Positions 18,225-55,345 of a stretch of 64,000 nucleotides of DNA are shown one piece after another; the first letter of the stretch is position 1, and every line of letters starts with the position of its first letter. A program made the position numbers and the translations under genes. The stretch is from positions 124,001 to 188,000 of the forward strand of contig NZ_BBJP01000023.1 in NCBI RefSeq assembly GCF_000739595.1, in the 5' to 3' direction. The stretch is from Halorubrum halophilum. GTDB taxonomy: Archaea; Halobacteriota; Halobacteria; Halobacteriales; Haloferacaceae. Below the pieces are notes generated by a model. The model made no database searches. It was not told the DNA's origin and worked only from the letters and a program-made list of their open reading frames with translations.

Positions 18225-18305
18225 ATGACACGAGACGATCGTGATCGTTCGGAGGATAGAGGAAGTCGCCTCACGGCGGCTGGCCGCGAAATTCTCCGAC
18301 GATAA
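18225..18305 (+). CDS. short leader ORF before the LeuA-type synthase
   Basis: A 26-codon ORF (MTRDDRDRSEDRGSRLTAAG then REILRR). Its ATG lies about 30 bases after a CTTATCA box, as in a leaderless transcript. It ends about 70 bases before the TTG I prefer for the downstream enzyme, in a different frame. It is a plausible leader peptide for transcript or translation control, rich in Arg and Asp with a Leu near the end, but has no run of Leu, Val or Ile codons that would suggest classic attenuation. It could also be chance. Confidence 0.35.
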   Translation: MTRDDRDRSEDRGSRLTAAGREILRR

Positions 18306-22690: not shown

Positions 22691-22996
22691 TTATAAAGAG
22701 ATGTGCGGTGGCGCGCGCCTCCGAGCGCCCATCGGGCGCGAGGAGCGCCGCGCGAGGGAGTCGCGAGCAAAGAGGGACCGAAGGTCCCTCATGCAGCCGG
22801 CGCGCAGCGCCGGCGACGAAGCGAGCGACGAGGCTGGGGAGGCGTGAGGTGCGGTTGCGGGCGGGTGGGACTCAAAGGGGCAGTCGGCGAGGCGGGCGCA
22901 GGCGACGTAAGCACCGCAGCGAAGGAGCGGGAGCGACTGAGCGAGAAGCGCAGCGAGCGTGCGCCCGCCTCGCCGGCTGGGGCTTTGGAGGTCTTC
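22691..22996 (+). repeat. large intergenic hairpin element, copy A (candidate structured RNA)
   Basis: A member of a four-copy family (others near 33.6, 39.4 and 52.6 kb). TTATAAA at 22691-22697 precedes the opening box TGCGGTGGCGCG (22704-22715). Ordered boxes follow: CGAGGCTGGGGAGGCGTGAG (22829-22848), GGGTGGGACTCAAAGGGGCA (22863-22882), GACGTAAGCACCGCA (22904-22918) and GCTGGGGCTTTGGAGGTCTT (22976-22995). Between boxes 1 and 2 are perfect stems GAGGGACC-GAA-GGTCCCTC (22772-22790) and GCCGGCGC-GCA-GCGCCGGC (22796-22814). This copy lacks the CGGAAG/CTTCCG domain of the others. ORFs through it look like translated repeat, not protein. Confidence 0.75.
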
Positions 22997-23172
22997 AACG
23001 CAGCACCATCGATCACGTATAAACAGCCGACAGCACCACCACTCGATCACTTATAAACGATCTCACTCGCGACGTACTATACCCACTCCCGCAGTCGATC
23101 AGGGCGCTGATCGGAACCGTAGCCCACGCTCGGATCAACATATTCACTACAGACCGTCACAAACCGGGGTGT
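22997..23172. other. tail of copy A and halocyanin upstream region with repeated TATA sites
   Basis: CGATCAC-N-TATAAAC occurs twice, at about 23009 and 23043, 34 bases apart, after the last box of copy A. Similar TTATAA sites follow the 3' box of the other three copies. The remaining DNA to ATG 23173 is probably the halocyanin promoter region. Confidence 0.45.
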
Positions 23173-33616: not shown

Positions 33617-34215
33617 TTTAAAAGTAAGTTGCGGTGGCGCGCGCCTCCGAGCGCCCGTCAGGGCGCGAGGAGCACGCGCGAGGCTGGGGAGGTGTGAGGC
33701 TGCGGTCCCGAGAGCGACCGCAGGGAGCGAGCGGGAGCACGGAAGTCGCAGCCCGCGCAGCGAACGGAGTGAGCGAGCAGGACCGTCTTCCGATGGTGCG
33801 GTTGCGGTCGGGGTGGGACTCAAAGGGGCGGCCGTGATCCCCGCGAGCAACGCGAGCGGGGGCACGGGAGACGGAGTCTCCCGGAGGGACGATACTTGGC
33901 GACGCAAGCAGCGTGGCGCTACGCGCCACGGGCAGCCGGCGGCTTCGCCGCCGGCGACACCGCAGGGAGCGAGTGGAACGAGCGACCGAGGAGCGTGGTT
34001 CGAGAGAGCAAAGCTCTCTCGTCATCGCCGGAAATCGGAGATTTCCGGCTAGCAGTCAGAATCCGTCGGATTCTGACGACATCACGAAAGGCGCTTCGCG
34101 CCTTTCGAACGACAGCGAGCCACGCGAGTCGTCGCGGCTGGGGCTTTGGAGGTGTTCTCCGTTGGATCGCTATCAGGCACTTATAAGCGAGCGGCTGAGA
34201 CCTTGGAAGTCTTCC
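33617..34215 (+). repeat. large intergenic hairpin element, copy B (candidate structured RNA)
   Basis: The longest copy. TTTAAAA (33617-33623) precedes the opening box at 33630-33641. Other boxes lie at 33679-33699, 33811-33829, 33901-33913 (GACGCAAGCAGCG) and 34137-34157. The optional domain 33701-33800 has CGGAAG facing CTTCCG. Perfect stems with three-base loops are stacked between the last boxes: GTGGCGC/GCGCCAC, GCCGGCGGC-TTC-GCCGCCGGC (33935-33955), GAGAGAGC-AAA-GCTCTCTC, GCCGGAAATC-GGA-GATTTCCGGC, GTCAGAATCC-GTC-GGATTCTGAC, and CGAAAGGCGC-TTC-GCGCCTTTCG. TTATAAG (34181-34187) and a degenerate second 3' box (34191-34215) follow. No protein-coding gene is credible here. Confidence 0.75.
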
Positions 34216-36166: not shown

Positions 36167-36555
36167 GTGTCTTTCCCACGCGCTCGGTGATCCACGACCC
36201 ACGTAAACCCTCGTGTCCTGTCTCGGGCCGCGCTCCGTCTCGGTCCGTGCTCCGGCTCCGCCCGCGTTCCCCCTCTAGATGTCCCGCACTCGCCCGAGCG
36301 GACGACAAGAACACGCTTAACAACCCGGACGACGACGCCTCATACGGGAACAGCACAGCTGCAGATCCGACGCGCCGGGGTCTTTTCGCCCACGGCTTGG
36401 GAATGTAGCAGTGCGCCGACGCCTCCGGCGTCGCGGTCGGACCGTCCGCTTGCGCGGGCCGTCCGGTCGGACAGCTCGACCCGCGAGCCGTCCGTCAGCC
36501 GCGTCGCGCGGAGTCGCGGTCACGTTGCGGTTGTGCCGTTCCAACCAGATACACA
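36167..36555. other. divergent promoter region of nhaC and rps15, with hairpins
   Basis: This 389-base gap separates the divergent nhaC-like and rps15 genes. CGACGCC-TCC-GGCGTCG (36417-36433) is a perfect stem-loop about 120 bases before the rps15 ATG. GC-rich CGG/CCG repeats continue to about 36500. No TATA box sits at -27 of the rps15 ATG, so a structured 5' leader is possible. No gene is seen. Confidence 0.5.
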
Positions 36556-39309: not shown

Positions 39310-39394
39310 CGCCGCTCCGAGCAGACCCGCAGTTTTCCCGTTTATCAGTCGCGTAGCGGCGACGCTGGCGTAGGAGGATGAGAGTAAGATCGGA

Positions 39395-39945
39395 TGCGGT
39401 GGCGCGCCCCGGTGAGCGGCCCGGAGGGCCGCGAGCCGCGAGGGACCGAAGGTCCCTCTGGCAGCCGGCGGCGCAGCCGCCGGCGACGCCGGTGCGAGGG
39501 AGTCGCTGGCGGCAGCCGCCGCCAGCGACAGGGCGAGAGCGGAGCTCTCGCTTGCAACCGGACGTAGTCCGGTGACGAGGCTGGGGAGGTGTGAGGCTGC
39601 GGTCCCGAGAGCGACCGCAGGGAGCGAGCGGGAGCACGGAAGTCGCAGCCCGCGCAGCGAACGGAGTGAGCGAGCAGGACCGTCTTCCGATGGTGCTGTG
39701 CGGTGCGGGGTGGGACTCAAAGGGGCAGCCGCGATTTCCGCGAGCGAAGCGAGCGGAAAGACGGGAGACGGAGTCTCCCGGAAGGACGACGCTTGGCGAC
39801 GTAAGCACCGCAAGAAGCGAACGGAGTGAGCGACTGAGGAGCACAGCGAGCCACGCGAGTCGTCGCGGCTGTGGCTTTGGAGGTGTTCGCCACAGCGTCA
39901 TCAGCGACGGCTTATAAGCAAGCGGCTGTGGCTTTGGAGGCGTTC
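39395..39945 (+). repeat. large intergenic hairpin element, copy C (candidate structured RNA)
   Basis: The opening box TGCGGTGGCGCG is at 39395-39406; no clean TATA box precedes it. Other boxes are at 39576-39596, 39708-39728, 39798-39812 and 39868-39888. Between boxes 1 and 2 are five perfect stems: GAGGGACC-GAA-GGTCCCTC (39440-39458), GCCGGCGGC-GCA-GCCGCCGGC (39464-39484), GCTGGCGGC/GCCGCCAGC, GCGAGAGC-GGA-GCTCTCGC and ACCGGAC-GTA-GTCCGGT. Several stems are followed by GAC. The optional CGGAAG/CTTCCG domain is present (about 39598-39695) and nearly identical to copy B. TTATAAG (39912-39918) and a near-perfect second 3' box (39922-39945) follow. Confidence 0.75.
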
Positions 39946-39983
39946 ACCGTCGATCCACCGTCAACCACTCATAACCCGTCCAC

Positions 39984-52516: not shown

Positions 52517-52619
52517 TGCTTACCCTCCGGTCCGTCGAGCGCGCACTTGAAGCCGTTGTCGCCGACGGCATGGGGGATAGATGATTTTGGTGAGCGCCGC
52601 CGAAGTCCCGGCCGATCGC

Positions 52620-53055
52620 TTATAAATATCCACCCGCGAATCGGCGGTCAGATCCTCCAAAGCCCCAGCCGCGACGACTCGCGCGCTTTGCTGCGCTCCT
52701 CACTCGGTCGCTAGCGCTCCCTCGTTGCGGTGCTTGCTGCAGCGTGCTTCGTCCTCGCGGCAGCGAGGCGCTTCGCGCCTCTGGCAGCCGGCGGCGAAGC
52801 CGCCGGCGACTGCCCCTTTGAGTCCCACCCGACCGCACAGCACCGCCGGAAGACGGTCGCCTCGCTGCGCTCGGCGCTGCGACTTCCGTGCTCCCGCTCG
52901 CTCCCTTCGGTCGCTCACGGGACCGCAGCCTCACGCCTCCCCAGCCTCGTCGGTGGTCCTCCGCGTTGCTCCGGACCACCGACTCCCTCGCGCGGTGCCG
53001 TTCGCGGCCCTTCGGGCCGCTCACGGGCACGCGCCACCGCAGTTCGTTTATAAAT
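52620..53055 (-). repeat. large intergenic hairpin element, copy D (candidate structured RNA, minus strand)
   Basis: The same element on the opposite strand. Read on the minus strand, TTTATAAA (plus 53047-53054) precedes the opening box TGCGGTGGCGCG (53030-53041). The later boxes are at 52929-52949, 52810-52830, 52725-52740 and 52654-52669. The optional CGGAAG/CTTCCG domain is present. The hairpin module GAGGCGC-TTC-GCGCCTC / TGGCA / GCCGGCGGC-GAA-GCCGCCGGC / GAC lies at 52765-52810 and reads in the plus direction, opposite to the copy. A second TATA-like site (52620-52627) marks the far end. Confidence 0.75.
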
Positions 53056-55280: not shown

Positions 55281-55345
55281 GCGCTTCGCGCCTCGCTGTC
55301 ACCAGCGTGTAGCGCCGGATTCAAGGAGAGCTTCGCTCTCGCCCC
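55281..55345. repeat. small hairpins between convergent genes
   Basis: GGCGC-TTC-GCGCC and GAGAGC-TTC-GCTCTC (about 55326-55340) lie between the uncharacterised gene and aroA. They have the same three-base-loop style as the stems in the large elements but none of the conserved boxes. They may be terminators of the two genes. Confidence 0.45.

Follow-up and report, generated by a model that had tools for sequence, protein, structure and literature searches.

A Run of Perfect Hairpins and Its Chance Expectation

How does a string of perfectly paired hairpins come to lie within one intergenic element, and what keeps the two arms of each hairpin matched? The question is raised by positions 33851-34120 of the window, by which we mean the whole 64-kb stretch of Halorubrum halophilum DNA analyzed here. 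A first-pass annotation had described six stems with three-base loops in this region, and all six were recovered, at 33912 (loop TAC), 33935 (TTC), 34001 (AAA), 34027 (GGA), 34055 (GTC), and 34085 (TTC), together with a seventh perfect stem at 33865 (loop GGA). The seven perfect hairpins have stems of 8-10 bp and loops of 3 bases. Counting hairpins with a stem of at least 8 bp and a loop of 3 bases, the seven observed compare with a mean of 0.009 in dinucleotide shuffles of 33851-34120 (maximum of 1 in 1000 shuffles), and 676 of the 709 sliding 270-bp windows across the 64 kb hold no such hairpin, with no comparable stretch elsewhere.

A second run lies in another copy of the same element (copy C, below), where stems of 7, 8, 9, 12, 8, and 7 bp start at 39416, 39440, 39464, 39502, 39533, and 39557, the stem at 39502 having a 4-base loop (AGCC). 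The annotation had reported this run and described its stems as different; the run is real, but GCCGGCGGC is common to copies B and C. The stems in fact belong to a handful of families that are common to copies and species, and they are mostly arranged in pairs. Transcription terminators are disfavored as an identity for these hairpins, given the many successive stems, the lack of a T-run, and the location of some of them inside open reading frames.

The Host Repeat

The runs are housed in a dispersed, intergenic repeat (the host repeat), four copies of which occur in the window. T1 in the following list denotes one type of the twin-hairpin module described in the next section.

22695..22999, + strand: host repeat copy A, with a T1 twin at 22772-22814
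33620..34210, + strand: host repeat copy B, a structured-RNA-like element that runs from box TGCGGTGGCGCG (33630) through box GGCTGGGGCTTTGGAGG and includes a tail
33812..34160, + strand: P3 domain of copy B, with closing stem CTCAAAG-GGG-CAGYCG ... CGRCTG-GGG-CTTTGGAG, interrupted by modules; the structure was derived on other copies
39385..39960, + strand: host repeat copy C, flanked by rps3ae and a GNAT acetyltransferase-like gene
52600..53055, - strand: host repeat copy D, with a T1 twin at 52765-52807 in the orientation opposite to the host

The minimal element is ~255 nt long and is recognized by conserved boxes, TGCGGTGGCGCG at the 5' end and GAGGCTGGGGAGGYGTGAGG, GGTGGGACTCAAAGGGGCAG, and CGGCTGGGGCTTTGGAGG near the 3' end. 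Many copies are preceded by a TATA-like motif, and in many the 3' box GGCTGGGGCTTTGGAGG is repeated 57 nt downstream. We observed this doubling at 39867 and 39924 of the window and in L067, L073, L074, L075, and other loci, and the interval that separates the boxes of such a copy often contains a TTTATAA motif. A covariance model of the core finds 135 copies in this genome and has matches in 86 of 116 Halobacteria genomes. Sites B and C flank the S15-S3Ae gene cluster, and the element is present there in many Halorubrum species, indicating that many copies are old. Rfam searches at gathering and relaxed thresholds gave no match over the host element, only known leaders and a tRNA; the leader matches in the window are leuA-Halobacteria and S15-Halobacteria, at 18245-18297 and 36344-36414. 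Within the collections searched, the element does not look phage-borne, the phage sets giving 0 matches and the plasmid sets four partial ones. A GC-rich optional module of ~107 nt (GGGAGCACGGAAGTCGCAG...) occupies one site in many copies (33706-33800 and 39603-39697 in the window) and another site in L025, and might represent one more mobile palindromic module.

The host core is composed of a long stem, a GGG/GGG internal loop, and an asymmetric motif (GYAAGSACC/GAGGASC), and by inspection the apical stem looks as if it contains tandem G-A pairs. Among 98 distinct copies, aligned with the model itself, 98.2% of cells are paired and 22 of 33 pairs have changed on both sides, a covariation signal that is lost when partners are slid. 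With one constant wobble pair excluded, the core has 84 G-U versus 15 A-C cells, although one pair alone supplies 36 of those 84. Tolerance of G-U over A-C is strand-specific and is a prediction of selection on RNA, which argues that the core acts as RNA. Covariation and strand-specific wobble tolerance, the signs by which we recognize a structured RNA, are thus both found in the host element; on these alignments its core clearly appears to evolve as a structured RNA and makes the repeat a candidate RNA family. Intergenic repeats of the ERIC type likewise exceed 100 copies per genome, fold strongly, and have no coding capacity, as does the host repeat (>100 copies, intergenic, strongly folded, non-coding), but the host repeat differs in its conserved asymmetric RNA-like core and in the upstream TATA-like motifs and 57-nt-spaced 3' box repeat of many copies.

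Twin-Hairpin Modules

The paired stems form discrete modules of 45-60 bp, here called twins, that are built from few stem families. In order, a twin consists of AGS or GTT, stem 1 (7-10 bp, 3-base loop), a linker (TGGCA, for example), stem 2 (3-base loop), and GAC, which is the usual end of all types. Type T1 combines GAGGGACC, GCGAGAGC, or CGTGGCGC with a TGGCA-like linker and GCCGGCGGC, GCCGGCGC, or ACCGGCGC; T2 combines TCACGAGAGC, gcca, and ATCAGAACGC; and T3 combines CGAGAGAGC, tcat(ca), and CCCGAAAATC or CGAAAGGCGC. Stems are nearly identical within a type and loops are variable. Defined as 3-base-loop hairpins 0-10 nt apart, 26 twins occur in 1.34 Mb versus 1.3 in a Markov control; with more loci added there are 69 distinct twins, 65 of them near a host element box. 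Module types were modeled separately rather than in one mixed alignment, and models R2 and R3 have 59 and 29 matches in the genome, which is a draft assembly, some of them overlapping or on both strands and all with rough covariance-model E-values. The hairpins and modules of the window are as follows.

33865..33883, + strand: single hairpin CGGGAGAC-gga-GTCTCCCG, also in copy C (39762-39780) and other copies
33912..33955, + strand: T1 twin, CGTGGCGC-tac / ggca / GCCGGCGGC-ttc / GAC, in box GYAAGC^ACCGCA; R2 match 33908-33958, 53.9 bits
34001..34107, + strand: four hairpins, T3 twin (CGAGAGAGC ... CGAAAGGCGC) at GAGCG^CAGCGAGC; R3 match 33997-34057
34027-34080, + strand: twin nested in the T3 linker, GCCGGAAATC / tagca / GTCAGAATCC / GAC
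39440..39484, + strand: T1 twin, GAGGGACC-gaa / tggca / GCCGGCGGC-gca / GAC; R2 63.9 bits
39502..39529, + strand: 12-bp peripheral host hairpin, family GTCGCTGGCGSC
39533..39573, + strand: T1 twin, GCGAGAGC-gga / ttgca / ACCGGAC-gta / GAC, at GCGAC^GAGGCTGG
55298..55345, - strand: degenerate T1 twin with mismatched arms, just downstream of an EPSP-synthase type gene

The last of these is an example of the degenerate copies that exist beside the perfect ones. The box GYAAGCACCGCA is split by the T1 twin at 33912-33955, and in L061, at site C of another species, this box is interrupted by that same module. We interpret the four hairpins at 34001-34107 as a T3 twin, a second twin having split its TCATCA linker; a related T3 twin in L257 (CGAGACGCC / tcatca / CGAAAGGCGC) is without the nested twin, and L325 also has a twin nested in a twin, as in copy B. 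The region in question (L325 490-620) has six successive hairpins, arranged as nested and tandem twins, which are in frame and lie close to the C-terminal end of a predicted CPRC-motif protein. Each module type lies at fixed sites within the host, T1 in both orientations, and the junction GCG^CAGCGA is reused in three contexts. Orthologous host elements at sites B and C are without the window's modules or have other ones, and whole hairpins thus come and go between the conserved boxes of orthologous copies. Module ends, and the lack of a target duplication, are defined from the comparison of diverged copies.

The annotation had proposed that an RNA element expands in place, by slipped-strand or hairpin-templated synthesis. 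As the main route of growth this is unsupported: homologous modules are found repeatedly at particular internal sites of different copies, in either orientation, nested, and outside the RNA element. The corresponding explanation, in which slippage or template switching makes an inverted duplicate of an arm, so lengthening the RNA locally with no mobile module, does account for some observations to which we return below; however, the same twin modules are encountered in numerous copies, sites, orientations, genes, and genera, the empty target lacks arms such as TCACGAGAGC, and the hairpins are paired, joined by a conserved linker and terminated by GAC. We consider it unlikely.

Modules Outside the RNA Repeat

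Twins are also found where the host repeat was not detected. Genomes such as G056, G069, and G078 contain R2 matches and gave no match to the host model, and loci from other genomes with R2 modules, among them L371, L372, and L375, have no host boxes; this indicates that the twins are not part of the RNA repeat. In other genomes we also noted twins inside or beside duplicated tRNA 3' fragments (L378 1337-1600, L367, L369). Several R2 and R3 matches lie in frame inside protein genes. In a DHH-family gene next to rps3ae, a 25-residue in-frame twin insert is present in one of 14 aligned orthologs (L138 only). In Halorubrum histidine-kinase homologs (L331-L360), anywhere from 0 to 4 in-frame 45-bp twin units (0, 1, 2, 3, or 4) come after the box NVFRNSVEHG, and they code for sequences like STSSRAEPDDSVEHG. 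Taken together, comparison of the copies shows that the twins insert as modules and form a homologous family with recurrent sites and both orientations, absent from orthologs, nested, and in frame in genes.

In the histidine kinases, arm 1 of the unit is the native SVEH coding sequence, arm 2 is an inverted copy of it, and the native sequence appears again after the unit. This arrangement favors growth in place, and at least some units may have originated by snap-back copying, which for the histidine-kinase units would fit better than the insertion of a finished element. Two further observations point in the same direction. In modules of fixed orientation, a loop triplet may be exchanged for its reverse complement, and the whole P3 interior is inverted, with flanking boxes intact, in L009 (1395-1536, - strand), L040 (1621-1767), and L067 (8895-9021). 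Such flipped loops and inverted P3 interiors are what template switching at hairpins would be expected to yield. Hairpin-templated copying, although unsupported as the main route of growth, may explain the perfect arms, the flipped loops, and the histidine-kinase units.

Arm Matching Is Strongly Indicated to Be Maintained at the DNA Level

The annotation's premise that perfect arms need either a copying mechanism or selection was upheld, and compensatory changes within arms proved to be real and strong. Stem 1 of the histidine-kinase unit is either GTGGAAC/GTTCCAC or GTCGAGC/GCTCGAC, and each version codes for VEHGST. Third-position bases co-vary 23:0/0:12 between the V and S codons and 22:2/0:12 between the E and G codons, with p-values that overstate the association, since the two main stem 1 variants are common to relatives; the same holds throughout, the sequences analyzed being related and their p-values too small. 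The codon pairing in stem 1 has no protein-level reason, and the force acts on nucleic acid. Stem 2 is perfect in 24 of 28 cases, and its pairs 2 and 6 vary and are always matched. In the T1 alignment, double changes are present in 10 of 15 pairs, counts of symmetric and asymmetric change being limited to covariance-model alignments and to families of 10-12 bp, because the GC-rich background is too strong in families of 8-9 bp.

Is this force exerted on a transcript? If the hairpins were expansion segments of the host RNA, they would be paired because the transcript must fold, and their peripheral positions in an element with an RNA-evolving core agree with such a role. The modules nevertheless lack the pattern of that core. 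In-register twin rows contain 780 Watson-Crick, 2 G-U, and 4 A-C cells (wobble 2/791); the near absence of wobble in the modules, versus its common occurrence in the host core, is unlike the pattern of RNA-stem selection. Perfect arms with synonymous paired changes are also found in protein genes, and the loops have no strand preference. Among 183 hairpins located in the host, loops are GNA in 54 and TNC in 46, the corresponding figure outside host regions being 15 of 195, and the closing pair is C-G in 176 of the 183. Triloops of the type d(C-GNA-G) are unusually stable in DNA, and the near-equal division of GNA and TNC over the two strands is consistent with DNA rather than with a transcript. 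Selection on the folded RNA is therefore an improbable explanation of the modules. That arm matching is maintained at the DNA level is strongly indicated, and we infer that either arm-to-arm copying or selection on a DNA hairpin keeps the arms perfect.

Known Elements Compared and the Search for a Mobilizing Enzyme

Among known elements, the twins resemble the REP/RPE palindromes in several respects. The CGTC REP superfamily, which includes Rickettsia RPE-4 and RPE-6, has stems of 8-9 bp, a tag (CGTC, or TGTC or CCTC) at one foot, and loops of 4-5 bases; its members are often dimers, mainly head to head, occur in palindromes and in frame in genes, and are without a known dedicated transposase, and none is reported from haloarchaea (PMC3733652). 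The likeness extends to stems (7-10 bp in the twins), frequent dimers, location inside other palindromes and in frame in genes, and the lack of a known dedicated transposase; it may include an unpaired foot tag (NGTC on the reverse strand, as modules end in stem 2 followed by GAC, which is GTC on the other strand, with a site-dependent fourth base). In contrast, the loops of the twins have 3 bases rather than 4-5, the twins are not head-to-head dimers (the GTC foot is on stem 2 only, and stem 1 begins with AGS/GTT), and T1 stems are without an AT start. Given that loop length and dimer geometry differ, we do not claim membership in the CGTC-type REP/RPE group for what is a resemblance between elements.

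PATEs and IS605-type ends are closer in host and size, being haloarchaeal, non-coding, and composed of two palindromes, with terminal-only versions of 52 bp (PMC3119063, PMC10544981). The twins might accordingly be IS605-type end remnants in which two near-terminal palindromes have fused into ~52 bp, as in Haloquadratum, and size, the two palindromes, the absence of an obvious target duplication, and the haloarchaeal host all agree (PMC3119063). The genome contains 3 Y1 matches and 26 TnpB-type matches, and a search for a cognate enzyme at its TnpA/TnpB loci found none with module-like hairpins. At 15 tnpA/tnpB loci of this genome, hairpin sequence and loop speak against PATE/IS605-type ends, the hairpins there differing in sequence and having mostly 4-base TTTA/TAAA-type loops; no linked tnpA/tnpB family, and no full-length element with these stems, was found for the twins. 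Such an origin is therefore highly improbable. One tnpB locus alone (L145/L300) has a twin nearby: a T2-like twin at L145 2568-2631 (G000:C81:107467-107530), ~300 bp upstream of tnpB, is the sole transposase-linked case seen.

Double-hairpin and repetitive hairpin-forming elements of mitochondria are also clustered tandem hairpin pairs in intergenic and coding DNA with inferred mobility, but they are mitochondrial and unrelated; in those of sponges, the stems are conserved and the loops variable, and a signal of paired change such as the twins show is missing (PMC2800124). No earlier report of the twin elements or of the host RNA in haloarchaea was found in the literature searched, the coverage of which was partial.

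A Proposed Account of the Modules and Their Significance

We consider it probable that the runs arise from mobile palindromes of a REP/RPE-like kind, which enter an RNA repeat and have their arms homogenized at the DNA level. On this account, short palindromic twins have inserted into an abundant haloarchaeal RNA repeat and persist there because its peripheral stems tolerate extra hairpins. The arms would be held identical at the DNA level, most likely by template switching in a transient hairpin during replication, by which loops would flip too, and perhaps also by selection for a DNA hairpin recognized by a putative mobilizing protein. New copies may spread via an activity in trans, for which an HUH/Y1-type transposase is a candidate, or via template switching between loci. 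A bolder proposal, which we advance tentatively and regard as somewhat unlikely, is that arm-to-arm DNA copying both keeps haloarchaeal palindromes perfect and seeds new ones with no transposase, lengthening RNAs and proteins.

The twins appear to be a widespread archaeal palindromic repeat that enters both structured RNAs and coding sequences, and the repeat that houses them is a candidate RNA family with >100 copies per genome that has no Rfam entry and is apparently uncatalogued. The histidine-kinase alignment provides a clean natural experiment in which paired synonymous codon changes preserve a palindrome. What keeps REP/RPE palindromes perfect, and whether a transposase is required, thereby become directly testable questions in cultivable haloarchaea.
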